From: a bacterium
Lineage (GTDB): Bacteria > Desulfobacterota > Anaeroferrophillalia > Anaeroferrophillales > Tharpellaceae
Direction of reading: 5' to 3'
Length of the DNA: 37,072 nucleotides
Assembly: GCA_029932385.1 (NCBI GenBank)
Contig: JAOZQE010000007.1
Span: forward strand, 1 to 37,072
Position 1 is the stretch's first letter. Every line of letters begins with the position of its first letter. Of the stretch, positions 1 to 30,655 are shown piece after piece. The notes beneath the pieces are model-generated. The model made no database searches and was not told the DNA's origin. It worked only from the letters and a program-made list of their open reading frames with translations. A program made the translations under genes and the position numbers.

Positions 1-68
1 ACGTTTACTGTACTTGCTGATAATGTTTTTTTTATTCAGATAAAATATAATTCTATTATAGGTTGATT

Positions 69-773
69 ATGGCGACTACATACGACTTTACTGCTAACGA
101 TTGGGTCGTCTATATTGTCGGTCAGCAGAATATCCGGAAAGGACTTCTGGCATCATTTTTAGAACGTGAGTTTGATTTCTGTTGTCAGGTCGCTGAGAAT
201 GGTTATGATCATCCTCCATCAAGCTTTGTCGGTAGCCGTTCTTTGCTGTTACTGAGGGATTGTTCAGGTGACAATGCTGAGGATGTCCTTGGCTATGTCG
301 CAACTTTTGGTGACCGTCTGCTATCGGATAAAAAGATCTATATGGCTCTGATTAATATTGCCCCTGATCTTGAGATCGAGGCTGAGTTGTTAAGGCGCGG
401 GGTGCGTGGGGTGATTATCGGTAGTCATGTCGCACCCGATCTCCTGCTACGTTTTATCGGGGCAGTTCTATCTGGTGAGTTGTGGTTTCCTAGGCAGCTT
501 ATTAGCCGTTGTATTCTTGAGAGCCGGGGGCAGATAGCAGCAAATGAAGGTGGAACACCGGCACCTCTTAAATCTATACTGCCAGTCACTTTATCTGTTA
601 GAGAGAAAGAAGTGTTAATGGAAATCGGTATCGGTTCAACAAATGATCAGATTGCTGATCACCTGTGCATCAGTCAGCATACGGTTAAAAGTCACGTCTA
701 TCGTATCTTCAGAAAAATACATGTACCTAACCGTCTTCAGGCAGCATTGTGGGCCTCTAAGTATTTAGTATGA
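69..773 (+). CDS. LuxR-family transcriptional regulator with degenerate receiver-like N-terminus (CsgD/VpsT-like architecture)
   Basis: C-terminal LuxR HTH (LSVREKEVLMEIGIGSTNDQIADHLCISQHTVKSHVYRIFRKIHVPNRLQAALWA). ORF track starts at TTG 63; ATG at 69 is the likelier start. Confidence 0.85.
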   Translation: MATTYDFTANDWVVYIVGQQNIRKGLLASFLEREFDFCCQVAENGYDHPPSSFVGSRSLLLLRDCSGDNAEDVLGYVATFGDRLLSDKKIYMALINIAPDLEIEAELLRRGVRGVIIGSHVAPDLLLRFIGAVLSGELWFPRQLISRCILESRGQIAANEGGTPAPLKSILPVTLSVREKEVLMEIGIGSTNDQIADHLCISQHTVKSHVYRIFRKIHVPNRLQAALWASKYLV

Positions 774-1338
774 ATTACTGTAAATATATCAAGTAATGGG
801 TAATTGATTGATGAGTGTACCCTTATGAATGAGATCCAGAAGATTACTTTTTAAAAACTGTGATACATCAGTGATTCAATTTATAGAAACTGTCGACCGA
901 AGCCTTAGGACTCATAAAAACCTGTAAAAGTGTCGGTTTTCTTTACAGATAATTAACGTAATTTCAATAGGTCAATTATCTTAGTGCCTTACATTTTGGC
1001 ATATTAAATGCATAATCCGTATGGTGTATTATAACTAGATATTTAACGTAGCTGTTGTTTCACAAATAATCATATTCAATTAATAGATGATTGATTGTTG
1101 GTGGTACCGTTATTTTTTTGGTTATGGATGAGATTCCTAAGAGTACTTTTTTTAAGAATAATCCTTTTTTAATACTTTTGACGGGTTGATTTTTTCTCTG
1201 TATATAGTATATAGGTCGTATGACAAAGTCATTTGGAAATTGATTGATTTTGATTTCTAGAAAAAGAGAGTTACGGTCGGTTTTTCTTCGTAGTTATATA
1301 TAGCTGGAAGCTATTTTATTTGACTGACGGGTGAGATT

Positions 1339-1656
1339 ATGGAAAGAAGGGTGGTTACCAGATACAACCTGCAGGTTCCGGCACATGTTGAGATTGTGCC
1401 TAGTGACGGTGAGGTTCAATCCTTTGAGTGGAAAACCCGGGATGTCTCATCCAGCGGAGCTTTTCTACTGACTGAGGGTCATGCTTTGGAGAATGGTACA
1501 GACCTTAAGGTTAATCTCTTTCTAAACTCTTTTTCCGGTGCTGGTTCATGGGTCACCATGAATGGTCAAGTTGTACGTTCAGAGTCTGAAGGGGTCGGTG
1601 TCTGTTTTGATGGTCAATATCAGTTTGTAAGTGAAGCTCCTGATCTCAATATGTAG
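1339..1656 (+). CDS. PilZ domain protein
   Basis: Begins MERRVVTRYNLQVPAHVEI and contains TRDVSSSGAFLLTE, the RxxxR and D/NxSxxG motifs of PilZ. Confidence 0.8.
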   Translation: MERRVVTRYNLQVPAHVEIVPSDGEVQSFEWKTRDVSSSGAFLLTEGHALENGTDLKVNLFLNSFSGAGSWVTMNGQVVRSESEGVGVCFDGQYQFVSEAPDLNM

Positions 1657-1705
1657 AATTAGGATTTTATATCCTTTTAAAGTTGTTCAGCAAAATGGCA
1701 ATAAT

Positions 1706-1745
1706 AAAAACCGGTTCAGAAATTATTTCTGTCCCGGTTTTTTTA
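1706..1745 (+). terminator. Rho-independent terminator after the PilZ gene
   Basis: AAAACCGG-TT-CAGAAAT.ATTTCTG-TC-CCGGTTTTTTT hairpin plus T-tract. Confidence 0.8.
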
Positions 1746-1767
1746 ATATTAACCAGAGGATGAAAAG

Positions 1768-2778
1768 TTGATGAGTATTTTGGTGACCGGTGCGGCCGGT
1801 TTTATCGGTTTTCATTTGAGTCGTCGGCTGCTGGCTGATGGAGTAAATGTGGTCGGACTGGACAACCTGAATGACTATTATGATGTTAAATTAAAAGAGG
1901 ATCGCCTGGCAATTTTGTCGCGAGCTGACAACTTCACTTTTGTCAATCTCGATCTGGTTGACAGTGTCGCTATGGCTGAGCTCTTTAAAATAAATACTTT
2001 TCAGAAGGTCGTCAACCTGGCGGCGCAGGCCGGAGTCCGTTACAGTCTGGAAAACCCGAAAGCTTACGTTGACAGTAACCTTTCGGGTTTTCTCAATATT
2101 CTGGAGGGCTGCCGCCATAATCAGATTAAACATCTGGTCTATGCTTCTTCAAGTTCGGTTTACGGGCTCAATACCAGGATGCCGTTCTCGGTTCACGATA
2201 ATGTTGATCATCCGTTAAGTCTTTATGCTGCCAGTAAAAAAGCGAATGAACTGATGGCGCATTCCTACAGTCATCTCTACCAGATCCCGGTTACCGGATT
2301 ACGCTTTTTCACAGTTTACGGTCCCTGGGGTCGGCCGGATATGGCCCTTTTCCTTTTCACTAAGGCCATTCTTCAAGGTGAGCCGATCAAGGTTTTCAAC
2401 CATGGTCAGATGGAGCGGGATTTTACTTATGTCGATGATATTGTTGAGGGTATTGTCAGATTGCTGCCGACACTGCCGCAACCAAATCCTGACTGGAATG
2501 GTGCTGATCCCGATCCCGGCAGCAGCCCGGCACCTTATCGGCTCTATAATATCGGTAATCACAGCCCGGTTAAACTGCTTGATTTCATCGCTATAATTGA
2601 AAAATCTCTAGGTTGTGAGGCCCGTAAAGAGTTCTTGCCGATGCAACCTGGTGATGTGCCCGCGACTTATGCGGATGTTGAAGATCTCAGCCGGGCCGTA
2701 GGTTTCAGCCCGGAGACTCCCCTCGAACAGGGGATTGAAGAGTTTGTGAAGTGGTACCGCCGTTACTTCAAGGTCTAG
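1768..2778 (+). CDS. NAD-dependent epimerase, UDP-glucuronate 4-epimerase-like
   Basis: [14 protein letters not shown] Rossmann motif, YAASKKANE catalytic motif, [16 protein letters not shown] typical of UDP-GlcA epimerases. Confidence 0.85.
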
Positions 2779-4517
2779 GTTTTCTGGCTCACCGCTTCGG
2801 AGTTGAACTGAAGTTTGTATAAATTAGCGTACTCTCCATCTTTCAGCAGGAGTTCAGCATGAGTTCCGACCTCTACAATCTGCCCGTTGCTCATCGTTAC
2901 TATTCGGTCAGCGTTGGTAATGGTTGAGAGGCGGTGGGCAATAACCAGAGTGGTACGATCCTGCATCAGGCGGGTGATTGCCTCTTGGACTTCACGTTCG
3001 GATTCGGTATCCAGAGATGATGTTGCCTCATCCAGAATCAGGATGGGTGAATTTTTTAACAGGGCTCGGGCAATCGAGAGGCGTTGTTGCTGGCCGCCGG
3101 AGAGACGGATGCCGTTTTCGCCGACAATAGTATCGTAGCCTTCCGGTAGATTTTCGATGAAATTATGGGCGTTTGCGGATTTAGCTGCGGCAAAAAGATC
3201 GTCATCACTGACATCTGACCGGCCGTAAGAGATGTTGACCCGGATAGTGTCGTTAAAGAGAATTGTCTGCTGTGACACTATTGCAATCTGCTGGCGCAGA
3301 GAGCGTTGGCTGAGAGTCCGGATATCATAGTCATCAATGGAGATCTTACCGGATGTCACATCGTAAAAACGGGGCAGAAGATTTACCAGCGTGGTTTTGC
3401 CGCTACCGCTCCGGCCGACAATCGCCACGGTCTCGCCTTTTCTGATTGTCAGCGATACCTTCTTTAAAATCTCTTCCTCTTGATTATAAGTAAAATCAAC
3501 TGATTCATAGCGGATGCTGTTATTGAAATCAGGAAGAGTGACTGCATCATCCAGGTCTTTAATCTCCGCTTCAGTATCGAGCAGTTCAAAAACTCGGGTA
3601 CCGGCGGCAAGAGCCTCCTGCACCTGGTTGTTACTGCGGTTTAATGAGCGGATCGGGCCGTAGAGCATAAACAGCGCCGTCATGAAGGAGAAAAAATTGC
3701 CTGGAGTCGATTGCCCGTTGATTACCTGACTACCACCGTACCAGATGACCGCTGCGGCTGCAATGCCGCCGAAAGTCTCCGAAATCGGAGCGGTTAATGA
3801 TTTTACCCGAAGACGTTTGATTCTCAGGGTAAAAAGTTTTTCGTTGACCCTGAAAAACTCCCGCCGGTTAAAATTCTCCATAAGAAAAGCCTTGATAATC
3901 CTGATGCCGGTAAAACTCTCCTGCAGGAAGGATGATATTTCAGCTATCTGTGACTGACCCTTTTTACTGAAACGGCGTAGTTTGCGGCTGTATTTAATAA
4001 TCGGAAAGAAGAGTAGAGGCAGAATTACAAGGGCGATAATCGCCAGTTGCCAGTCGCGGTAGAAGAGTACACCGATAAGTCCCAAAGCTGTAATGATCTC
4101 TTTCAGGAGTCCGGCGATAACGCTTGATACTGACCGCTGAATCATGCCGATATCATAGATGACACGTGAGGTTAGAGATCCACTCGGGATGGCGTTGAAA
4201 AAGGAGAGAGAGAGGCTCTGAATGTGGTTGAAAACCTCTTCCCTGATATCCGTAACAATCCGGTTGCCGACAAAACCGATAAAGTATGACTGAAAGTAAT
4301 TCGAGACTCCTTTGACAACAAAAATCAGAATAAGAACCAGCGGCAGGAGCTTCAGCATGGTAGCATCCTGTTGCAAAAAGATATCATCTAAGGCCGGTTT
4401 TACGAGAAAGGCGATTGCTGAAGTCAGAAGCGAGAAGATGATCATAAAGATAATCGCCAGCGACAGTTGTAGCCGCAAAGGTTTGACGTAGCGTAAAAGG
4501 CGGCGGTAATTATGCAT
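2775..4517 (-). CDS. msbA: Lipid A export ATP-binding/permease protein MsbA
   Basis: Six-TM ABC exporter with Walker [10 protein letters not shown], signature LSGGQQQR, Walker [13 protein letters not shown]; adjacent to lpxB. Confidence 0.9.
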
Positions 4518-19894: not shown

Positions 19895-19922
19895 TTGACA
19901 AAATTAACTTATGAGTTATACT
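19895..19922 (+). promoter_or_regulatory. Candidate sigma70 promoter for the regulator/kinase operon
   Basis: TTGACA - 16 nt - TATACT. Confidence 0.6.
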
Positions 19923-20012: not shown

Positions 20013-21473
20013 GTGACAGGGAGTACCGGAGAGGTCGTGATCTCCAGGGAGTTTCAGGGTATGTCGGGTGTAAAAGTTCTTGTTGTTGATGATGAAGATG
20101 TGATCAGGCGGGGCATTTGCCGGGTCATGGAGGGTCGGGGCTACCAGGCAGAGGCTGCTGAAAGCGGTTACGGAGCGGTTGAAAAGCTCCAGAAAACACC
20201 TTTCAGCATCGTCATCACGGATCTTAAAATGCCGGGGATGGATGGCATCGAGGTTCTAAAGGCCATTAAAATCCTGCAGCCGGAGGTACCGGTCATTATC
20301 ATTACCGGGTATTCCACCGTTGATACTGCGGTGGAGGCAATGAAAAATGGGGCTTTTGATTATATTGCCAAACCTTTTACACCCGATCAGATGATCGAGA
20401 TGGTCGAAAAAGCACTGGAACAGAAAACCGTGCAGATGCAACGGACTCATCCGGTGGTTGGTCCTAGTCTGAACGGTTTTGAGATCTTTGTTGGTGAGAG
20501 CGAAGCGATGCAGAGGGTCTATGCCCGAATCCGACAGGTCGCTCCCACCGACAGTACGGTTCTTATTACCGGTCAGAGTGGAACCGGGAAAGAACTGGTG
20601 GCCAAGGCTATTCATAAAAACAGCCTGCGTTGTAATAAGTCCTTTGTCGCAGTCGATTGCACATCCCTGGTCGAGAACCTTCTGGAGAGCGAGCTTTTTG
20701 GTCATGTCAAAGGCTCTTTCACCGGGGCCGTACAGACCAAGATGGGATTGTTCAAAGTCGCTGACGGAGGTACCCTTTTTCTGGACGAGATTTCCAATAT
20801 CAGCCTGGCGACCCAGGGGAAACTATTGCGGGTACTCCAGGAGTTTAAGATAACTCCTATCGGTGGAACTAAACCCATCCCTGTTGATATCCGTCTCATA
20901 ACCGCTACCAATCGTGACCTGAATGATATGGTCAACGAAGGGCTTTTTCGACAGGATCTTTTTTTCAGACTCAACATCATTCCGGTTAACCTGCCTCTTC
21001 TGGTTGATCGAGAAGGAGATCTTCCTCTTTTCGTCGACCATTTCCTGAAAAAATTCTCCGAAGAGATCGGCAAGGAGATCCATGGAATGTCGCCGGCCGC
21101 CATGTCCATCCTTGAGCGACATCCTTTTGCTGGAAATGTCAGGGAGCTGGAAAATATTATCGAAAGAGCGGTTGTGCTCACACGCAACAAGCTTATTCAA
21201 CCCGAGGATCTGGAGATTATGTCCACCTCCGATGATGGTCCTCCTGAGATTATTACGGAGTCCGTTCCCCATAGTGTAGAGGGGCTGAAGGAGGTCAAGA
21301 GAGAGGTTCGGGAAAAAGCGGTTGGGCCGGTTGAACGCGCATTCCTTATCCAGGCCCTTGAGCGTAATCACTGGGTCGTTACCCAGGCTGCCAAAGATGT
21401 CGGGATGTTGCGGCCCAATTTTCAGGCTATGTTGAAAAAACATAGTATTTCCGTGAGAGATCATTCTGAATAG
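20013..21473 (+). CDS. Sigma54-dependent NtrC-family response regulator
   Basis: Receiver (VLVVDDEDVIRRG, VITDLKMPGMDG), AAA+ domain (GQSGTGKELVAKAIH, GSFTGA loop), Fis-type HTH C-terminus. ATG at 20061 is an alternative start. Confidence 0.95.
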   Translation: MTGSTGEVVISREFQGMSGVKVLVVDDEDVIRRGICRVMEGRGYQAEAAESGYGAVEKLQKTPFSIVITDLKMPGMDGIEVLKAIKILQPEVPVIIITGYSTVDTAVEAMKNGAFDYIAKPFTPDQMIEMVEKALEQKTVQMQRTHPVVGPSLNGFEIFVGESEAMQRVYARIRQVAPTDSTVLITGQSGTGKELVAKAIHKNSLRCNKSFVAVDCTSLVENLLESELFGHVKGSFTGAVQTKMGLFKVADGGTLFLDEISNISLATQGKLLRVLQEFKITPIGGTKPIPVDIRLITATNRDLNDMVNEGLFRQDLFFRLNIIPVNLPLLVDREGDLPLFVDHFLKKFSEEIGKEIHGMSPAAMSILERHPFAGNVRELENIIERAVVLTRNKLIQPEDLEIMSTSDDGPPEIITESVPHSVEGLKEVKREVREKAVGPVERAFLIQALERNHWVVTQAAKDVGMLRPNFQAMLKKHSISVRDHSE

Positions 21474-21502: not shown

Positions 21503-23071
21503 ATGCGCTTTAAATTGATCGTTCAGATCTCTTTGATTACGGGAATTATCCTTTTGTTTACATCGGCCCTCTTTGGTTATTTCAATATCTCAACTCTAAA
21601 ACAAGCCTTCCTTAAAAGTGCTGTATCAGACCTCGATCATCTGAGCGAAACCATTTTCAGAGCTGTATTTCATCAGATGCTGGAAAATAATAGGAGTCAG
21701 ATACAGGTTACAATCGGGGAGATGGGCAAACAGCAGGGGATCGAGCGTATTCGGATCCTCAACCGGGAGGGAATGATAGCCTTCTCTGTCATAACAACTG
21801 AAATCGGTACCATTCTTGATAAGGAAAAAGCTCCGGCATGTATGGTTTGCCATAATGAAGAAATGACCAAGGAGACTTGTTTTCCTCTGGAGGATCCCTC
21901 ACCCTTGGTTCGCAGTAGAATGTTTCTTGATTGTAACGAAAAAAGGGTTTTAGGTTTGATCAGACCCATATATAACGAGAAGACATGCTGGACGGGTGCA
22001 TGCCATGCCCACTCCAAGGATACGCCTCTTCTGGGTCTTCTGGATATTACTATTTCCGCTAATCCCATGCTTTCGATGGTTCGCAATTATCGCAATAATG
22101 CCATTATTCAGATCATCTTTCTGATTCTTTCCATCTCGCTTTGTCTGACCCTGCTTACCAAGAGGTTGATAATTCAACCGGTTCATGCGCTGTTAGAGCA
22201 CACCCGGGCTGTCGGTAAGGGGGATTGGAGTCTTGTCGAATCGGTGCCGGGGGACGAATTGGGAGAACTCGCGGAGGCGTTCAACGATATGACCGGCAAG
22301 CTGAAAACCCACCAGCATAAACTGGAGGAGTGGGCGGCGACACTGGAGACCAAGGTGGAGAAGCGTACGCGCAAGATAAAGGAGATGCAGTCGGTTCTGG
22401 TACGTTCGGAAAAACTTGCATCCTTAGGCGAGCTTGTCGCGGGGATCGCCCACGAGCTCAATAACCCGCTTACGGGAATTATGATTCACGCTTCTCTTCT
22501 ATCTTCTGACCCGCGTCTGGATGAGGGTTTGACGGAGGATTGCCAAACGGTTATTCATGAGGCTGCACGCTGTTCGAAGATCGTCAAAGAACTGTTGGAT
22601 TTCGCCAGGGTCACTGATCCGCAAAAGGAGATGCAGCCAGTCAGTAAAGTTATAGATAAAACTATCGCCCTGATTGAACATCATGTTGATTTCAGAGACA
22701 CTGAGGTAATCAAGGATTATGATCCTGACCTTCCGGAAATATTGATGGACGCTTCTCAGATTGAGCAGGTTCTCATAAATATAATGATCAACGCAAGCCA
22801 AGCAATGTTGCAGGGGGGTGAACTGGTTTTAGAAACGGGGGTAAATGCATCGAGGGATCGCATCTATATTCGGGTTAAGGATACCGGCTGCGGTATTGCG
22901 GCAGAAGATATAGAAAAACTTTTCGATCCTTTTTTCAGCACCAAAGGTCACAATGGCACCGGCTTGGGTCTCTCGGTCTCCTACGGAATTATTCAGTCTC
23001 ATGGCGGAGAGATCGAAGTTGAGAGCGAGCTGGGTAGTGGCACGGTATTTACAATTACTCTTCCTATTTAA
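21503..23071 (+). CDS. Membrane sensor histidine kinase with periplasmic CXXCH + CX4CH (putative dihaem c-type) sensor domain, HAMP, HisKA, HATPase
   Basis: Two TMs flanking ACMVCHNE and CWTGACHAH; AGIAHELNNPLTG; DTGCGIAAEDIEKLFDPFFSTKGHNGTGLGLSVSYGII. Confidence 0.93.
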   Translation: MRFKLIVQISLITGIILLFTSALFGYFNISTLKQAFLKSAVSDLDHLSETIFRAVFHQMLENNRSQIQVTIGEMGKQQGIERIRILNREGMIAFSVITTEIGTILDKEKAPACMVCHNEEMTKETCFPLEDPSPLVRSRMFLDCNEKRVLGLIRPIYNEKTCWTGACHAHSKDTPLLGLLDITISANPMLSMVRNYRNNAIIQIIFLILSISLCLTLLTKRLIIQPVHALLEHTRAVGKGDWSLVESVPGDELGELAEAFNDMTGKLKTHQHKLEEWAATLETKVEKRTRKIKEMQSVLVRSEKLASLGELVAGIAHELNNPLTGIMIHASLLSSDPRLDEGLTEDCQTVIHEAARCSKIVKELLDFARVTDPQKEMQPVSKVIDKTIALIEHHVDFRDTEVIKDYDPDLPEILMDASQIEQVLINIMINASQAMLQGGELVLETGVNASRDRIYIRVKDTGCGIAAEDIEKLFDPFFSTKGHNGTGLGLSVSYGIIQSHGGEIEVESELGSGTVFTITLPI

Positions 23072-23097
23072 GGTAGCAGCCTTCTAGAAGAGATATA

Positions 23098-23137
23098 AAA
23101 AAATGTCATTCCGGTTTTCATCGGAATGACATTTTTT
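23098..23137. terminator. Bidirectional terminator between convergent units
   Basis: AAAAAATGTCATTCCG - 8 nt - CGGAATGACATTTTTT, perfect 16-bp stem. Confidence 0.85.
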
Positions 23138-23197
23138 CATATCTCCTTGAATTTACGCCCCCGATGGAAATGCCCTTGGGAGCTGTTTCCTGGCGTA

Positions 23198-23440
23198 TTA
23201 ATCCCCCTTTGTTACGGCTTCGGTTGCTGCAGTCTCTTTACCGTGTATTGAGGCCACCGCTCCCTTAATAAATCCCACAACCAGCATAAGAGCCGGAACC
23301 AGTTGGGCCACAACGATCAGAGCACAGATACCGACAAATACAGATACGAGAATCCCACTTTTGTAAACCACTGTCTCTGCGGCAAATGCCGGGCTGATAA
23401 CCGCAAGAACCAAATATAGTGTTGTGATAGCCGTTTTCAT
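23198..23440 (-). CDS. Small membrane protein, 80 aa (paralogue of 29294-29536)
   Basis: Signal peptide + TM; VVYKSGILVSVFVGICALIVVAQLVPALMLVVGFIKG nearly identical to the second copy; Shine-Dalgarno upstream. Confidence 0.85.
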   Translation of the reverse strand: MKTAITTLYLVLAVISPAFAAETVVYKSGILVSVFVGICALIVVAQLVPALMLVVGFIKGAVASIHGKETAATEAVTKGD

Positions 23441-23482: not shown

Positions 23483-23713
23483 TTAGTTGTTCTTAACTCC
23501 CTCGTGATCTTTTGCTTTCCCAAAAACACCCGCCAGCATGGAGCCTATCATTATCAGGGCAGGGACAAACTGTAAGGCAACGATAAGAGCCAAAAATCCG
23601 AGAAATATCCATCCTGCGAGGCCTAACTCACTAACCTCTACGCCGCTCGCGGCGAATGCTGCATTTGCTTGCAGGACGGTCATGAGTGCAATGATACGAA
23701 ATGTGTTTTTCAT
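23483..23713 (-). CDS. Small membrane protein (paralogue of 30057-30305)
   Basis: MKNTFRII...AFAASGV...GWIFLGFLALIVALQFVPALIMIGSMLAGVFGKAK; GGAGG before the ATG at 23713. Confidence 0.85.
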   Translation of the reverse strand: MKNTFRIIALMTVLQANAAFAASGVEVSELGLAGWIFLGFLALIVALQFVPALIMIGSMLAGVFGKAKDHEGVKNN

Positions 23714-23808
23714 TTTTCTCACCTCCGCTTAGATTCAAAAGACTTCAATGTCTCTTGGGTTGTATTTCCCATCTTGAAATACAAAATACTTTATATGATC
23801 TACATCAC

Positions 23809-23824
23809 TGCATGAAGTGTTCCA
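23809..23824 (-). promoter_or_regulatory. Sigma54 (-24/-12) promoter
   Basis: Minus strand TGGAACACTTCATGCA; GG and GC separated by exactly 10 nt. Confidence 0.8.
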
Positions 23825-23922
23825 TTTGTGATATAAATTCTATTTATTTATCTAAATAACTGAATATAAAGAATTTAATTTTTATAACATGAAGGAGTAG
23901 GACTTGTAATGTTTTGTCCAGA

Positions 23923-23941
23923 TGTATATATTTTTTGTACA
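23923..23941. promoter_or_regulatory. Candidate activator binding site (UAS) upstream of the sigma54 promoter
   Basis: TGTATA-TATTTTT-TGTACA, 98 nt upstream of the -24 element; same motif and spacing at 30508-30526. Confidence 0.55.
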
Positions 23942-24110
23942 GTGTATGTGTGGAAATGGGTCGTGGGGAAACATTAAATATCCTAAGCCACTGAAAAGTA
24001 TAGAGTTACTCAATATTATTTGAACGTATATAAAAAAAGTGCCCTTCATTTCCTTCCGCATACATCCTTGTACAGGTTCGTTATTTATGGGAGAGTAGGG
24101 GTGAAAGGAT

Positions 24111-24139
24111 AAAAAAAGACCAACCTGAAAAAGGTGGCC
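24111..24139 (-). terminator. Terminator for the redox operon
   Basis: Minus strand AGGCCACCTTTTTCAGGTTGGTCTTTTTTT: imperfect stem then T7. Confidence 0.6.
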
Positions 24140-24163
24140 TTGTTGGTGGAAATAACAGACTGC

Positions 24164-24592
24164 TTAAAGGTTTTTCTTGGGTTGTTTTTTGTCTGCGGTT
24201 ATGTGTAGTCCACAATGGAGACACCGGCGCAGAAAAAGCGGTGTAAATCCATTAAGATGAAAAAGTTTGCCACAACGTGGGCACTTGCCGGCGGTTGTGA
24301 GAAGGCTGGATACAAGAACAAGCAGAAACCAGACAGCAAAAACTTTGGCGGTTTGGCGATCCGAATTGGTTAACCGTAGCGAAACCCAGATAGCCGGCAC
24401 ATAAATTAGAATAACGCCCCAAAAAAAACAACGTCGTCGACGAAGGTTTCTCAGTCCCGGGGCGAATTTAGAGAAATCTTCAGTCTGCTCACCTTTCAAC
24501 CTGATCTCCTGATCATATATTGTCAGCATATAGGCAGAAGGTACAAAGTAAACCAAAAGCTCAATGCCTTTGTCTCTAATTTTCTTTGACAC
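24164..24592 (-). CDS. Membrane protein with C-terminal zinc ribbon (CPRCG...CLHCG)
   Basis: Two hydrophobic helices followed by KCPRCGKLFHLNG..RRCLHCGL. Confidence 0.65.
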   Translation of the reverse strand: MSKKIRDKGIELLVYFVPSAYMLTIYDQEIRLKGEQTEDFSKFAPGLRNLRRRRCFFWGVILIYVPAIWVSLRLTNSDRQTAKVFAVWFLLVLVSSLLTTAGKCPRCGKLFHLNGFTPLFLRRCLHCGLHITADKKQPKKNL

Positions 24593-24603
24593 CTATAAGT
24601 CTA

Positions 24604-25128
24604 TCACTTATCCAAAAACGCGAGAGTCTTTTCTTCTTTCTTGATGGTTTCACTGCAGACGGACCAGACCCGATAGTTCTCAAGGCTGAGAATCGTCAGA
24701 CCGGCTATGAATACCGCCCAAAAGTTATCCCGAAGTGTGCCGCTATAGTAATAGAACAGATAAAACGCCGAAAGATAGCCGATGTGCGACCAACCATGAA
24801 AGTGGACGGATGCAGTATTCATGCGGCCCAGGATGAGGATAAGGGCGGAAAAAGCGTAGATGATCAGGGCAACACTGATTAGGGTGGAAGAGGGAGAAAT
24901 GCCCAGGAACTGTCTTACATTTTCGGATATGGGGGGGAGAAATCGAAAGTTGACCGCCGCACCCAGGCTGATCAGGAAAAAAAGGGCTGTCCACCATTTA
25001 CTGAAGCGTATCTGCTTTTTAAGGCTGAGAATTCGATCTTTAATTTTTTGGTGTCGCTGCTCCGAGCTTGGTATCTCCTCGCTCGGAGCCAATTGATGAT
25101 TTTGTTTCTGCTTTCGCCGTAAAAACAC
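24604..25128 (-). CDS. Multi-TM uncharacterised membrane protein (GTG start or frameshift product)
   Basis: ORF with ~4 hydrophobic segments; only in-frame start is GTG at 25128. Confidence 0.6.
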   Translation of the reverse strand: MFLRRKQKQNHQLAPSEEIPSSEQRHQKIKDRILSLKKQIRFSKWWTALFFLISLGAAVNFRFLPPISENVRQFLGISPSSTLISVALIIYAFSALILILGRMNTASVHFHGWSHIGYLSAFYLFYYYSGTLRDNFWAVFIAGLTILSLENYRVWSVCSETIKKEEKTLAFLDK

Positions 25129-25200
25129 GCAAAACCCCCGTATGGGTCAATAACCTCGATTAAGGTTGCCGAGCTCCTGCCATTAAGAACTGAATTAAAC

Positions 25201-26049
25201 TTATTCATCCTCTCCTTTATTTATATTATCAGTTTTTTGGATTTTTATCAATCTTGTTTCAGTAAGTTGTTTCTCTCTGGCCATGTCAAGATAGATTTGG
25301 CTTAAGGTTTCAATCTCACTGATCCCCTTGGGGAAATCATTATCCATTTCCCCCCCGGAAAGCTTTTTCACATAGTCCATCAACTGGTTGATGGGGGTGA
25401 GTAGGTTTCTTTTAAGCAAAGCACTGACTCCGCCCACGGATAATATGAGAATCATGACGCAGAAGGAAACCATTTTCCAGTGCAGTGCTTGCAGGTTGCT
25501 GTCCAGAGAAGCGGTCGACAGACCGATGTCCAGGGTTCCGAGAACTTTTTTCTCAGCGGGGTGAAAATGGCAGTCACCCGCAGAGCATAGGGCATCGTTG
25601 TAGATCGGGGCGGTAATGGCCAATACATTGTGGTTATCAGCATTGACAAAACGCCTTGCTAACTCCATGGAGCCCAAACGCACTGAAGGTTCGGAACCGC
25701 TGTGGCACTCGATACATCCGGCTGTCGTTTTGTTAACGACCTGATTTAACTCCTCGGGGGTCGAGGAGAACATGATAACCCCCTCCTTATTGAAGATCCG
25801 GAGATGCTCGACTCCTTTCTGATCCCCGATACTGTTAATAATATAGTTTAGACTTTTCCGGTCATCAGTCATCATGGTGTAGCGGGTCGCACTGATTACA
25901 GTAGCGGCAAGGTTCGTCTCTTGTTGTACCGTGGTTTTCAGAAGATCTTCTTTAATGGAGGAACACAGAACAATGCTGCAGATAACGACAAAACCAGTTA
26001 TGGAAAGTGCGACCGGGACGATTGCTTTGGAAACAAAGTTGTTGAACAT
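25201..26049 (-). CDS. Kinase-less membrane sensor: periplasmic CXXCH + CX4CH domain plus HAMP
   Basis: GCIECHSG, CSAGDCHFH, TMs on both sides, HAMP-like NLLTPINQLMDYVKKLSGGEMDNDFP, then stop; no HisKA/HATPase. Confidence 0.85.
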   Translation of the reverse strand: MFNNFVSKAIVPVALSITGFVVICSIVLCSSIKEDLLKTTVQQETNLAATVISATRYTMMTDDRKSLNYIINSIGDQKGVEHLRIFNKEGVIMFSSTPEELNQVVNKTTAGCIECHSGSEPSVRLGSMELARRFVNADNHNVLAITAPIYNDALCSAGDCHFHPAEKKVLGTLDIGLSTASLDSNLQALHWKMVSFCVMILILSVGGVSALLKRNLLTPINQLMDYVKKLSGGEMDNDFPKGISEIETLSQIYLDMAREKQLTETRLIKIQKTDNINKGEDE

Positions 26050-26121
26050 ATCCAGTTCTCCTTTCCGGTCTTCCGGTTTAAATGAGGCTCAGCGTGAAAT
26101 GAGCAACTATTTATTGCCTTT

Positions 26122-26166
26122 AAGTCAAAGGGGTCAAAGGATCCACCCCTTTGACCCCTTTGACTT
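26122..26166. repeat. Perfect 19-bp inverted repeat (hairpin)
   Basis: AAGTCAAAGGGGTCAAAGG - ATCCACC - CCTTTGACCCCTTTGACTT; each arm contains tandem GTCAAAGG. Confidence 0.95.
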
Positions 26167-26187
26167 TTTAGACCTTTTGTACATTTT

Positions 26188-27534
26188 TTACGATGGTGTT
26201 ACCACCTTTGCGAACTGATGCTCGGGTTGAACCGGGTCAGGGTCAGCCTGCTCGGGCACAGGTACGCTCACAAGTTCCTTTGCCGGCACGGCCTGCCACG
26301 CGTACAGAATTGGGAGCCGATAGAGGATAAAGCGATAGACAGTCACGAACAGGAAAAATATGGTTACGCTTATGATCGTTTCCAACAGAGGGGGCCATTC
26401 CTGGTAGAGGTTCCAGTTGAAGCTGATCAGAACCGTATTAAGCCGGTTCAACAGCAATCCAAAGATGGTGAGAAAAGCTGTAAATCGGATCAGGCCGACG
26501 CTTTTATTTCTAATGGCAAAGGAGAAAAGGATTATGGGAAGCACCACTCCCAAACCGATTTCCAGTAGATACCAGGTACCCCATCCGGTGGTGAGATATG
26601 CCCACAGGTTGTCATGCGTCATCCCGACAATCTTGATAACTAAATAGGTTACCAGGGCCATACTGGCACCTTTGGCCAGACCGATGGTAATCGAGTCGAG
26701 ATTATCCAGAAACTCACCGCTGCAACGCCAGGACATGGTCTTTTTGACAATAGTACTGACCGCAATAACCATGCAAAGGCCGGCAAAAATCGAAGAACAG
26801 AGGAAGAATATCCACATAAACTCAGCTGAGTACCAGAGTGGGTGCACTTTCCCCGGTGCATAGGTAAGGAGGGTTCCCAGAGCTCCCTGATGGAGAGTTG
26901 AAAGGATGATTCCCGCCACGGTCAAGCCGATGGTTCCTTTATGGATATAGTTCTTCGCGGTGGGCCAGCCTATCCATTCGAAAAACGACTCGGAGACTTC
27001 CAACACCTGTACTGTCAGGTAGGTTGCAACATGCCAGCCAACCAAAAAGAGAACCGCTGCCGTACCCCACGAGATAACCATGGGATAGTAGAGCCGCCAA
27101 GGCATGCCCAGATCCACCAGCAGGAAAACAACCGCGAAGAAATATCCGAGCAAACCATTGAGTAGCGCTAGATTGAGGATTGGTTTGTAATCTTTTTGAC
27201 CAAATAGTTCCACCGTTGTCCCGAGCAGAAATCCCGAGGCCGAGAGCGGTACCATACAGAAAAGACCGAAGCCTAAGAAAAGGCCCCACGGATAATCGAA
27301 ACTGCCGTGCATAACCGAGCCCAGTCCATTGATATATCTGTAGACGATAACCGGCAGACCCACGGCAAAGATCATAAATAGGAACCAGTTGAAAGGGTTA
27401 CGCCGAAGTTGCTGAAAATACTCTTTAGGAGATAATCCCAGCAACAGTTTCTGCATTAGACTCCACTGGTGACCATCATCCGGATCATTGAGAGAGTCAA
27501 CCGGCTTAAAGCCTTCTTTTATAAAATTTTTCAT
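26188..27534 (-). CDS. NrfD/HmcC/DsrP-like integral membrane quinol-interacting subunit
   Basis: About ten hydrophobic helices; follows a TAT ferredoxin and multihaem cytochrome; LHQGALGTLLTYAPGKVHPLWYSAEFMWIFF typical of NrfD/HybB/DsrP proteins. Confidence 0.85.
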   Translation of the reverse strand: MKNFIKEGFKPVDSLNDPDDGHQWSLMQKLLLGLSPKEYFQQLRRNPFNWFLFMIFAVGLPVIVYRYINGLGSVMHGSFDYPWGLFLGFGLFCMVPLSASGFLLGTTVELFGQKDYKPILNLALLNGLLGYFFAVVFLLVDLGMPWRLYYPMVISWGTAAVLFLVGWHVATYLTVQVLEVSESFFEWIGWPTAKNYIHKGTIGLTVAGIILSTLHQGALGTLLTYAPGKVHPLWYSAEFMWIFFLCSSIFAGLCMVIAVSTIVKKTMSWRCSGEFLDNLDSITIGLAKGASMALVTYLVIKIVGMTHDNLWAYLTTGWGTWYLLEIGLGVVLPIILFSFAIRNKSVGLIRFTAFLTIFGLLLNRLNTVLISFNWNLYQEWPPLLETIISVTIFFLFVTVYRFILYRLPILYAWQAVPAKELVSVPVPEQADPDPVQPEHQFAKVVTPS

Positions 27535-28472
27535 TCTCCGTGAACCTCCACTTTGTCTTTAGATTCCTTATCTCCCTTTCCCCCTTTTGCCAGGAGGTGA
27601 AATCCCATAAACAGGGCCGGCCAGATACCTAAGACCATGGGTACGATGCCCAGAAAACTTTTGGTGTTGTCTAAGATCGGATGGTGCTGCAGGGTTGTGT
27701 TGAAGCCCGCTTGATCGAAGGGAACGCTGGAGAGATACATCCAGGATGTACCACCAACCTCTTTTTCCCCGTAGACATGATCAACATACTTTTTGGGGTT
27801 CGACCGAATTCGCTCATGCGCAGTTTTTACGAGGGTTTTCCGGTGGCCGAAAGTCAGGGCCTCCTGGGGACACGCCTCGACACAGGCTGGCGGTTTCCCT
27901 TTAGTTAGACGGTTATCGTAGCAGAAGTTACATTTTATTATCTGAGGATGTAAAGCACTGTCATAGGTGTATGCCGGCATACTGAAGGGGCAGGCAACCA
28001 TACACATTCTGCAGCCAACGCAGACATCTGCGTTGTAGATGACCGCGCCCTCTTTTGTTTTCGTGTAAGCGTTAACAAAGCATGAGGTCAGACAGGCTGG
28101 TTCACTGCAATGGAAGCACTGGAGTTTCCGGTATACCGGTGCTCCCTGAGCTTTTGTATCATAGCGGTTGACAACCGTGTAGGCCTTTTCAGTAGTTCGG
28201 CGTTTCTGTTTGCCCTCGTGAAATACCTGATCGAAAACCGAGAAGTCGTCAAAGGGAAGTTCCGGTTCCGGCAGGCCATGTTCCTTATTGCACGCTGCTT
28301 CGCAGGTACGACAGCCAATGCAGCGGGTAAGATCTACCAATACCCCCATACTCTCCGGGTAACCTTCGAACTCCTTCATTGCAAAACTTTTAGTGGAGGA
28401 CATCGCTGCAGCGGCGCTGCCGCCAGCGACGACGGTCGATTTGAGAAATTTTCTCCGGCTTATACCACTCAT
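27531..28472 (-). CDS. TAT-exported 4Fe-4S ferredoxin-type subunit (HmcB/DsrO/HybA-like)
   Basis: SRRKFLKSTVVAGGSAAAAMSS TAT signal; CIGCRTCEAACNKEHG, CFHCSEPACLTSC, CVGCRMCMVACPF, CNFCYDNRLTKGKPPACVEACP; C-terminal TM. Confidence 0.92.
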   Translation of the reverse strand: MSGISRRKFLKSTVVAGGSAAAAMSSTKSFAMKEFEGYPESMGVLVDLTRCIGCRTCEAACNKEHGLPEPELPFDDFSVFDQVFHEGKQKRRTTEKAYTVVNRYDTKAQGAPVYRKLQCFHCSEPACLTSCFVNAYTKTKEGAVIYNADVCVGCRMCMVACPFSMPAYTYDSALHPQIIKCNFCYDNRLTKGKPPACVEACPQEALTFGHRKTLVKTAHERIRSNPKKYVDHVYGEKEVGGTSWMYLSSVPFDQAGFNTTLQHHPILDNTKSFLGIVPMVLGIWPALFMGFHLLAKGGKGDKESKDKVEVHGE

Positions 28473-28523
28473 GATGATCTATCCCCCTTTCCTAGTTGAA
28501 AAATGATCTTTTTTCTGAAAAAT

Positions 28524-29051
28524 CTATTCATGACTGCCCCCACTTTTACCGCCTGTGGGCGCATATTTGCCGGAACTGTAAAAACGATTACCGGCATCAG
28601 TTCTTTCGTGACAATCTACACACTCTGTGGGTGCTCCCGTTTCAATATGGCAATTTAAGCACTTCAGGTGATAGGCACCCTTGAGCCCTGTTATGTCGAC
28701 ATGGAATCGATGAGGATCCTCCTCCATCTGCCGGATATGCTTGCCCGTGAATGGTTCGGCGACATGGCAGTCACTACAGGTCGGTGAGAAGGTTCCCCCG
28801 CATTCAGAATGGCATGCGGCGCAGCGATCCGCCGCAACCTCACTACTAAACCTATGATGATGGCAGACAGAGCAGTTTTCTTCTATGTCGACATGCAGTT
28901 CGTGGTCAAAATCAACTCCTTCATAAAGGTGGGACAGGGAGTCTATGCGCACTGATGTCGGAGGCTCATCATCGACCCCGAAAGCCGGAGCGGAGATGAA
29001 AAACAGCGCCAGGATTATCCCGGTTATGATCCGTATCTTTCTAATTTTCAT
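28524..29051 (-). CDS. Five-haem c-type cytochrome
   Basis: Signal peptide; five CXXCH motifs (CSVCH, CAACH, CSDCH, CLNCH, CVDCH). Confidence 0.9.
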   Translation of the reverse strand: MKIRKIRIITGIILALFFISAPAFGVDDEPPTSVRIDSLSHLYEGVDFDHELHVDIEENCSVCHHHRFSSEVAADRCAACHSECGGTFSPTCSDCHVAEPFTGKHIRQMEEDPHRFHVDITGLKGAYHLKCLNCHIETGAPTECVDCHERTDAGNRFYSSGKYAPTGGKSGGSHE

Positions 29052-29083
29052 TCGTTTGTTCCCCCTTGAAATGTTCAGAGACT

Positions 29084-29272
29084 CTATTTATTCCCTTTAT
29101 CGGCATCTTTATCGTACATGATAACTTTCCTGAAAAATATTGGAAACGCGATCAAAAATCCGACGCAGATAAGATATTCGACAGCCTTGATATAATCGTA
29201 GTACTCCACCAGGGTGCCGATCGCTACCGGTTCGCCGATGGTATTAAAAAAATCAACTATTTGGTTGCCCAT
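29084..29272 (-). CDS. Small single-TM subunit, 62 aa (HmcD-like by position)
   Basis: MGNQIVDFFNTIGEPVAIGTLVEYYDYIKAVEYLICVGFLIAFPIFFRKVIMYDKDADKGNK; in the redox operon. Confidence 0.7.
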   Translation of the reverse strand: MGNQIVDFFNTIGEPVAIGTLVEYYDYIKAVEYLICVGFLIAFPIFFRKVIMYDKDADKGNK

Positions 29273-29293
29273 TGAAGCTCTCCTTTTTCGCAG

Positions 29294-29536
29294 TTAGTTT
29301 GCATTCGGAGTGGATTCGGTTGCGACGGCCACTTTTTTGTTGGACAAGCCCACCGATGATTTAATAAATCCCAAAACCAGCATCAGCGCCGGAACCAGTT
29401 GGGCGACAACGATCAGGGCACAAAAACCGACAAAGACGGAGACTAGAATTCCGCTTTTATAAACCACCGTGTTCCCGGCAAAGGCCGGACTGATTGATGC
29501 CAATACCAAAATGATTGTTGAGATCGCTGTTTTCAT
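29294..29536 (-). CDS. Small membrane protein, 80 aa (paralogue of 23198-23440)
   Basis: MKTAISTIILVLASISPAFAGNTVVYKSGILVSVFVGFCALIVVAQLVPALMLVLGFIKSS. Confidence 0.85.
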   Translation of the reverse strand: MKTAISTIILVLASISPAFAGNTVVYKSGILVSVFVGFCALIVVAQLVPALMLVLGFIKSSVGLSNKKVAVATESTPNAN

Positions 29537-29568
29537 GAATAATTCTCCTTATAATTATTTTGCGTTTT

Positions 29569-30012
29569 TTATCCTGCTTCCGGAGTAGGTCTCTCTTTAC
29601 AGAGTCTCCCGACAGGAGTTTTTTGTGAAATTATTTTGTCGCTGGAGTTGTCAAAGGCACATTGAACTACCTGTCTGAGTTCTTCCTGATCATCACTATT
29701 TACTGGTTTCAAGGCATGGTAGAAGATTCCTTCGCGACGAAATCTGCGGATTATGGCTGGGGACTCTTCATTTGAGATCAGGATTATAGTTAAATTCTGA
29801 TTACATTTTTTCAAGAGAGGGATGATTTTTATGGCTGATAATCCATCGAACTCACTTCCTAAAAGGATGACCCGGGCATCTTTTTTCAGGACATCATGGA
29901 GCACGACATCCACAGAATCAGTTGCAATAACACTGTACTCGCTTTCGTTGAAAAACCCGGCGATCCGTTTGCGAGTTTCTTCATCCCGGTCGGCTATTAG
30001 AAGAATCTGCAT
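29569..30012 (-). CDS. Stand-alone receiver-like protein, apparently lacking the phospho-acceptor Asp
   Basis: ILLIADRDEETRKRIAGFF, ARVILLGSEFDGLSAIKIIPLL (Gly at the usual Asp position), YHALKPV. Confidence 0.8.
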   Translation of the reverse strand: MQILLIADRDEETRKRIAGFFNESEYSVIATDSVDVVLHDVLKKDARVILLGSEFDGLSAIKIIPLLKKCNQNLTIILISNEESPAIIRRFRREGIFYHALKPVNSDDQEELRQVVQCAFDNSSDKIISQKTPVGRLCKERPTPEAG

Positions 30013-30056
30013 GCTCTCTTCCCCCTATTTAAGGAAATACCCGGTATCCACTTTTC

Positions 30057-30305
30057 TCAAGAGTTGTTGACCTTCCTGTTTTCCACAACGCTTTTACCGG
30101 CGTTCGCTTTCCCGAAAACGGAAGCCATCATCGATCCAAACATTATCAGGCAGGGAACAAATTGAAATGTAATGACAATCCCCAGGAAACCGATGAAAAT
30201 CCAACCGATGAAGCTAATCCCTCCACCACCGACACCGGTTGCGGCAAAAGCCGTACTGGCTTGCAAGGTGGCTAGTATTGTAATGATACGAAATGTGTTT
30301 TTCAT
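30057..30305 (-). CDS. Small membrane protein (paralogue of 23483-23713)
   Basis: MKNTFRIITILATLQASTAFAATGV...GWIFIGFLGIVITFQFVPCLIMFGSMMASVFGKA; GGAGG before the ATG at 30305. Confidence 0.85.
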   Translation of the reverse strand: MKNTFRIITILATLQASTAFAATGVGGGGISFIGWIFIGFLGIVITFQFVPCLIMFGSMMASVFGKANAGKSVVENRKVNNS

Positions 30306-30393
30306 TTTTCTCACCTCCGCGCAGATTCAAAAGACCTGAATGTCTTTTGCCCTATATTTTATGTTTTATATACATTACGGTTATATACGTATT

Positions 30394-30409
30394 CGCATAA
30401 AGCGTTCCA
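30394..30409 (-). promoter_or_regulatory. Sigma54 (-24/-12) promoter of the redox operon
   Basis: Minus strand TGGAACGCTTTATGCG; GG-N10-GC; near-identical to 23809-23824. Confidence 0.8.
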
Positions 30410-30507
30410 ACTCTGAAAGAAATCACCTTGAGAGTCATAAAATATTGTATTTATTATATTTTATTGTTTTTTTGGATTGAAGGAAGTTCGTCGTGGAATG
30501 GTTGTGG

Positions 30508-30526
30508 TGTATATTTTTTTTATACA
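30508..30526. promoter_or_regulatory. Candidate activator binding site (UAS)
   Basis: TGTATA-TTTTTTT-TATACA, 98 nt upstream of the sigma54 promoter. Confidence 0.55.
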
Positions 30527-30616
30527 TCATAACAAGGTGATATGCTTGGGAGAAGATATCATCCTGTTGTAAGTCTGTGAAATTAAGTACTTATCTGATA
30601 TTGTCAAAGAGTATAT

Positions 30617-30655
30617 AAAAAAAATGCCCCTGTTTATCAATAAAATAACCGGGGC
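30617..30655 (-). terminator. Minus-strand terminator upstream of the redox operon
   Basis: Minus strand GCCCCGG...CAGGGGC followed by ATTTTTTTT. Confidence 0.6.

Follow-up and report, generated by a model that had tools for sequence, protein, structure and literature searches.

A conserved palindrome predicted to be the sigma54 enhancer of a regulon of small membrane proteins and an HmcB/HmcC-like complex in Tharpellales and Desulfuromonadales

Two minus-strand units of genes for small membrane proteins, carried by a 37,072-nucleotide (nt) stretch of DNA (contig JAOZQE010000007.1 of assembly GCA_029932385.1, hereafter the window) from a marine sediment bacterium of the Tharpellaceae, share a sigma54 promoter and an upstream palindrome at the same spacing, which raises the question of what recognizes this palindrome and which genes are placed under its control. 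The source assembly comprises 2.35 Mb and is 89.6% complete, and the closest named relative of the host is Candidatus Tharpella aukensis (PMC9213671). Unit 1 encodes, in order, the small membrane protein S1a, a receiver-only protein, S1b, a 62-amino-acid (aa) protein, a multiheme cytochrome, HmcB-like and HmcC-like subunits and a kinase-less heme sensor, and unit 2 consists of S2a and S2b, closed by a terminator. An earlier note made on this DNA had proposed a local two-target regulon of the sigma54-type activator encoded next door. Our analysis makes it highly probable that the shared motifs are the sigma54 enhancer of this activator, driving the S genes together with the HmcB/HmcC-like complex.

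The promoter anatomy (Table 1) agreed with that described in the earlier note: GG-N10-GC elements precede both units (TGGAACGCTTTATGC and TGGAACACTTCATGC, with TGGAAC/TGGCAC-N6-TGC conserved), in each promoter the T of TGG follows the end of the 19-bp palindrome by exactly 98 nt, and the start codons at 30305 and 23713 are ATG codons with a GGAGGTG Shine-Dalgarno sequence. With up to one mismatch the palindrome was matched 4 times in the window (2 sites, both strands) vs 0.09 expected, and across the whole assembly the exact pattern occurs at these two places only; 2 one-mismatch palindromes elsewhere in the genome (C80, C131), located in or beside enzyme genes, did not match the composite palindrome-sigma54 pattern. 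The genome harbors an rpoN gene (433.8 bits; cut-off 277.35). As the sigma54-like pattern taken alone (≤2 mismatches) is no rarer in the window than expected by chance (16 found vs 16.7 expected), support for the sigma54 elements comes from their conservation.

This conservation was analyzed in a set of 80 orthologous loci, many of them from Desulfuromonadales, including Geobacter and Geomonas, and both motifs were found to be maintained over order-level distances, from Tharpellales to Desulfuromonadales. All the Tharpellales promoters (12/12, from 9 genomes) combine the sigma54 element with a palindrome located 95-101 nt upstream of it, and also share the element GGGCATTTTTTTYATATACT about 102 bp further upstream and IHF-like (integration host factor) blocks, TTCAANNNNTTA. 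The best palindrome in 56 promoter regions had 0, 1 or 2 mismatches in 17, 12 and 15 cases, respectively, vs about 0, 0.1 and 1.4 in shuffled sequence, figures that are descriptive and non-independent, and its distances clustered at 95-101 and 196-202. Within 49 promoters of the 80-locus set, sites with ≤2 mismatches were present in 42/49 and with ≤3 mismatches in 48/49, the shuffled-sequence background for ≤2 mismatches being around 0.3% at each position.

The spacing itself is informative. Over 88 promoters, the proximal gap takes values of 76, 82-87, 92-101, 105-109, 119 and 128, most of them near helical-turn steps counted from 97, as expected for an activator obliged to face the polymerase. 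Exact copies of TGTATA-N7-TATACA occupy the offset of a second, distal site (UAS2, for upstream activating sequence) in many Desulfuromonadales, and the separation between both sites is mostly 101-104, with a 123-125 group in Desulfuromusa. Because the distal element of the window lies in register, and is exact at gap 196-202 in many Desulfuromonadales, it is identified as a decayed second copy of the site. The possibility that it was a terminator was discarded, as the hairpin at unit 1 of G000 is inconsistent in orthologs and relatives show the in-register palindrome. An IHF-like position is also strongly conserved across the wider family: 32/88 promoters contain a match with ≤1 mismatch, vs 10% of shuffled sequences, and the majority of these matches sit between -39 and -42 relative to the sigma54 element. 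The host genome carries an IHF alpha gene and a near-threshold IHF beta. Both UAS2 and the IHF-like site had been overlooked in the earlier note.

To identify the targets of the site, the composite of palindrome and sigma54 element at the right spacing was searched for in 24 genomes, rendering 24 matches in 17 genomes, whereas the reversed-pattern control over the same genomes gave 0 matches. Outside the main operon, every match with enough downstream sequence precedes an S gene; these matches come from Desulfuromusa kysingii, Malonomonas rubra, Geomonas sp. Red32 and a Tharpella relative, and 2 Malonomonas matches at contig ends were left out of the downstream-gene assignment. In an additional set of 60 S-unit regions, most show a strong sigma54 element, and 36/60 contain the palindrome (≤2 mismatches). 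The site is thus placed almost exclusively before S genes or the complex. S genes themselves were found in 30/297 genomes sampled from the phylum, reaching 12 copies in D. kysingii. The two-target regulon envisaged in the earlier note therefore fits the host genome, but not its local character, as dispersed copies in relatives carry the same site; the regulon is defined by the S proteins and the redox operon and not by locality.

As S genes are the commonest target and are found alone elsewhere, the sigma54 switch could serve mainly the S-receiver-S module, with the main operon transcribed mostly from internal or sigma70 promoters. We consider this unlikely, because complex operons lying apart from the S module still have a palindrome and a sigma54 element of their own. 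This is the case in three split loci, L105 (Pelovirga terrestris), L106 and L111, whose S-receiver-S module and redox operon form separate units that each bear the two motifs, and the redox operon of L093 has its own pair in a locus where no S module was found.

Regarding the protein predicted to read the site, the gene at 20013-21473 does encode a sigma54-type activator, with the receiver Asp in VITDLKMPGMDG, an AAA+ domain with a GSFTGA loop and a Fis-type helix-turn-helix (HTH) domain. Its orthologs, 55-100% identical, have a common recognition helix (..GM.RPNFQA.LKK), and the palindrome co-segregates with them. In 5 S modules located beside another activator type (helix ..GLSQSRLYALLK) the sigma54 elements are present and the palindrome is absent, and loci with redox subunits lacking an ortholog of the activator showed no palindrome site. 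Within the host genus, the absence of the complex coincides with that of the S genes and of the activator ortholog in G001 and G012, two genomes that are largely complete. Alternatively, another factor, such as a repressor, could use the palindrome as its operator and co-regulate the same sigma54 promoters, while the neighbouring activator binds elsewhere. Binding of the activator to the palindrome is indeed a prediction from sequence, and a further block conserved in Tharpellales, TGTAGATTGTATAAAG, lies just downstream of the -12, outside the assigned elements. However, this alternative is quite improbable: the palindrome is present in two copies at enhancer distance, its spacing shifts by close to whole turns, it accompanies one activator type and is missing beside another, and the cluster has no other DNA-binding regulator gene that is consistently present.

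The similarity between the two units was also considered. Their palindromes are identical at 17/19 positions, their sigma54 elements at 13/16 and their further upstream elements at 17/20, vs 43/98 for the palindrome-to-sigma54 spacers (31% expected) and 31/82 for the spacers further upstream (28% expected). The DNA between motif and promoter is thus mostly diverged, as the earlier note held, but its identity is still above random. In G006, unit 2 retains a receiver gene between S2a and S2b, the same order as in unit 1, indicating that unit 2 arose by duplication of the first part of unit 1; the leaders are also alike. As the units are paralogous duplicates, their identical spacing could have been inherited, a caveat that the orthologs settle along with that of the chance-level sigma54 pattern. 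That motif and spacing are functionless relics of a recent duplication is scarcely credible, as divergence is much greater in the spacers than in the motifs, and the persistence of the latter across orders and in scattered single units contradicts it.

Several observations weigh against the enhancer of the neighbouring activator as the explanation. Sites and S genes are present in G002 and G008, two incomplete assemblies in which no activator ortholog was found. The distal sites (4-5 mismatches) and IHF-like sites (2 mismatches) of the window are weak, and gaps of 92 (L115) and 128 (one promoter) fit less well to a strict helical step. Shuffle-based figures overstate significance because the relatives share ancestry, and the case for an enhancer is built from sequence computation.

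Under the enhancer model, the heme-bearing sensor kinase and the activator would probably be expressed together from a sigma70 promoter, and the kinase would phosphorylate the activator, whose Fis-type HTH would then bind a TGTATA-N7-TATACA palindrome centred about 107 bp above the -24 element; many relatives would offer it a second one, centred about 210 bp above the -24. IHF-like bending could loop the bound activator to the sigma54 polymerase at TGGAAC-N6-TGC. This would switch on, in unit 1, S1a-pseudoreceiver-S1b followed by the HmcB/HmcC-like quinone-cytochrome c complex and the kinase-less heme sensor, and, in unit 2, the duplicated S2a-S2b pair.

Table 1. Features of the two units and of the activator/kinase operon in the window.
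Feature	Position	Strand	Remark
Sigma54 -24/-12 element, unit 1, TGGAACGCTTTATGC	30395..30409	-	conserved in 12/12 aligned Tharpellales promoters
Sigma54 -24/-12 element, unit 2, TGGAACACTTCATGC	23810..23824	-	
UAS1 unit 1 (proximal predicted activator site), TGTATAAAAAAAATATACA in gene orientation	30508..30526	-	conserved in orthologs
UAS1 unit 2 (proximal predicted activator site), TGTACAAAAAATATATACA	23923..23941	-	
UAS2 unit 1 (distal, decayed), GGCATT-N7-TATACT	30610..30628	-	in register, 102 bp upstream of UAS1
UAS2 unit 2 (distal, decayed), GGCACT-N7-TATACG	24025..24043	-	
Weak IHF-like site, unit 1, ATACAATATTTTA, 2 mismatches to WATCAANNNNTTR	30438..30450	-	-41 from sigma54 T
Weak IHF-like site, unit 2, ATTCAGTTATTTA, 2 mismatches	23853..23865	-	-41 from sigma54 T
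Leader stem-loop, unit 1, CAAAAGAC-N6-GTCTTTTG, upstream of Shine-Dalgarno	30328..30349	-	compensatory changes
Leader stem-loop, unit 2	23737..23758	-	compensatory changes
S1a small membrane protein, 82 aa, signal-peptide-like start and one helix	30057..30305	-	
Receiver-only protein without phospho-acceptor aspartate (pseudo-receiver)	29569..30012	-	
S1b small membrane protein, 80 aa	29294..29536	-	
62-aa small membrane protein, conserved within operon	29084..29272	-	
Multiheme c-type cytochrome	28524..29051	-	
HmcB-like iron-sulfur subunit	27531..28472	-	
HmcC/NrfD-like membrane subunit	26188..27534	-	
Kinase-less paralog of heme sensor, CxxCH and CX4CH	25201..26049	-	
S2a small membrane protein, S1a paralog	23483..23713	-	
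S2b small membrane protein, S1b paralog	23198..23440	-	
Terminator hairpin separating unit 2 from convergent kinase gene	23094..23141	-	
Sigma54 activator: canonical receiver, AAA+ with GSFTGA loop, Fis-type HTH	20013..21473	+	
Sensor histidine kinase: sCache-fold sensor, invariant CxxCH and CX4CH-x-H motifs	21503..23071	+	
Sigma70-type promoter TTGACA-N16-TATACT, activator/kinase operon	19895..19922	+	11/12 matches

The sensor of the kinase is predicted to adopt an sCache fold resembling the sensor domain of WalK and the heme sensor GSU0935, with the CxxCH and CX4CH-x-H motifs invariant in the orthologs aligned. Domains of the sCache_heme type fused to signalling modules have been reported to behave as nitric oxide (NO) sensors (PMC12889525). 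The signal could be NO or a redox change at the heme. Its kinase-less paralog (25201-26049, minus strand), around 30% identical to the sensor part of the kinase, lies in the operon thought to be controlled by the kinase, where a feedback or a separate redox role is possible.

The S proteins, of around 80 aa, have a signal-peptide-like start and one long helix with the signature F.GF.AL....Q.VPA....G..KG, and gave no convincing match in Pfam, NCBIfam, PHROGs or PDB, with no significant similarity to phage or other known small-protein families. Their structure model, a single long helix after the signal-peptide-like start, is uninformative for fold searches. The receiver-only protein encoded between S1a and S1b retains a near-invariant EGIFYHALKP motif, and its phospho-acceptor aspartate is missing in nearly all orthologs (exceptions in L105, L106 and L111), a reason to reject a phosphate sink for most members. 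Regarding the redox subunits, the HmcB-like (398.8 bits) and HmcC-like (341.7 bits) proteins score below the respective NCBIfam equivalog cut-offs of 420 and 550, which places the complex outside Hmc proper. The cytochrome (175 aa) has five CxxCH motifs, short of the 16 hemes of HmcA, and is related to TmcA and to the C-terminal parts of nine-heme and high-molecular-weight cytochromes. Tentatively, in a lineage-wide signalling system, a periplasmic c-type-heme sensor of NO or redox state might command, via one sigma54 activator, an undescribed family of paired single-helix membrane proteins, with up to 12 dispersed copies per genome, and a pseudo-receiver, all acting as regulated partners or protectors of the quinone-cytochrome complex; if true, this would be a new kind of inducible membrane device.

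Two-component activators of the NtrC/AtoC/ZraR type have palindromic enhancers roughly 100-200 bp upstream. The activator shares their receiver, AAA+ and Fis HTH domains, but falls below the NCBIfam equivalog cut-offs (422.6 of 714 for AtoC; 401.9 of 558.6 for NtrC) and differs in its loop, which reads GSFTGA, and in its own predicted site, TGTATA-N7-TATACA. Among known sigma54 systems, this architecture is seen, for example, in the orp operons of Desulfovibrio vulgaris (PMC3897727), in which two sigma54 operons have palindromic sites for an activator encoded alongside, with IHF sites between activator site and promoter; there, however, the activator (DVU2106), the palindrome and the cell-division-related targets are different, whereas here a classical response regulator is paired with a sensor kinase. 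Like the Hmc/Nhc/Tmc-type complexes of sulfate reducers, the complex combines an HmcB-like iron-sulfur protein, an HmcC-like NrfD protein and a c3-type multiheme cytochrome, but a short cytochrome replaces HmcA and the operon is headed by S proteins and a pseudo-receiver. The periplasmic sCache fold with a CxxCH in an inserted helix is shared with the sCache_heme sensors GSU0582 and GSU0935 (PMC12889525), which differ in lacking the extra invariant CX4CH-x-H, the coupling to a sigma54 activator and the kinase-less paralog in the target operon.

The kind of system is thus known, whereas the regulon and the S-protein family appear undescribed, this target family being the most interesting part. 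Neither hmc nor tmc nor the palindrome motif is mentioned in the main text of a paper on the sigma54 regulome of D. vulgaris (PMC4641369), and literature text searches of incomplete coverage, hence weak evidence of novelty, returned no description of the motif or regulon. The analysis provides a precise candidate binding site for an uncharacterised sigma54 activator of cultured D. kysingii, M. rubra, P. terrestris and Geomonas, and joins in one regulon a heme sensor, an Hmc-like electron-transfer complex and an unannotated family of small membrane proteins. In addition, the cross-genus spacing series, mostly near whole turns and with site-to-site distance largely preserved, constitutes a natural experiment on the geometry of enhancer looping.

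Other features recur in these loci. In L126, L129, L135, L136 and L085 (minus strand, near positions 1-4000), from Geomonas and a Desulfuromonadales metagenome-assembled genome, a second S-receiver-S module is accompanied by a sigma54 activator and a kinase of its own; the sigma54 elements of these modules are strong, but the TGTATA palindrome is missing, so a different binding site is to be expected. The block TGTAGATTGTATAAAGTAT is conserved immediately past the sigma54 element in Tharpellales promoters (e.g. L034, L035, L036), and the leader stem-loop is kept in most Tharpellales leaders of S-a genes, with 91% of cells paired and 4/8 pairs changed on both sides. Finally, a membrane protein with a CxxC...CxxC zinc-ribbon-like C-terminus (24164-24592, minus strand) recurs beside S units in L161, L105, L106, L111 and L164.

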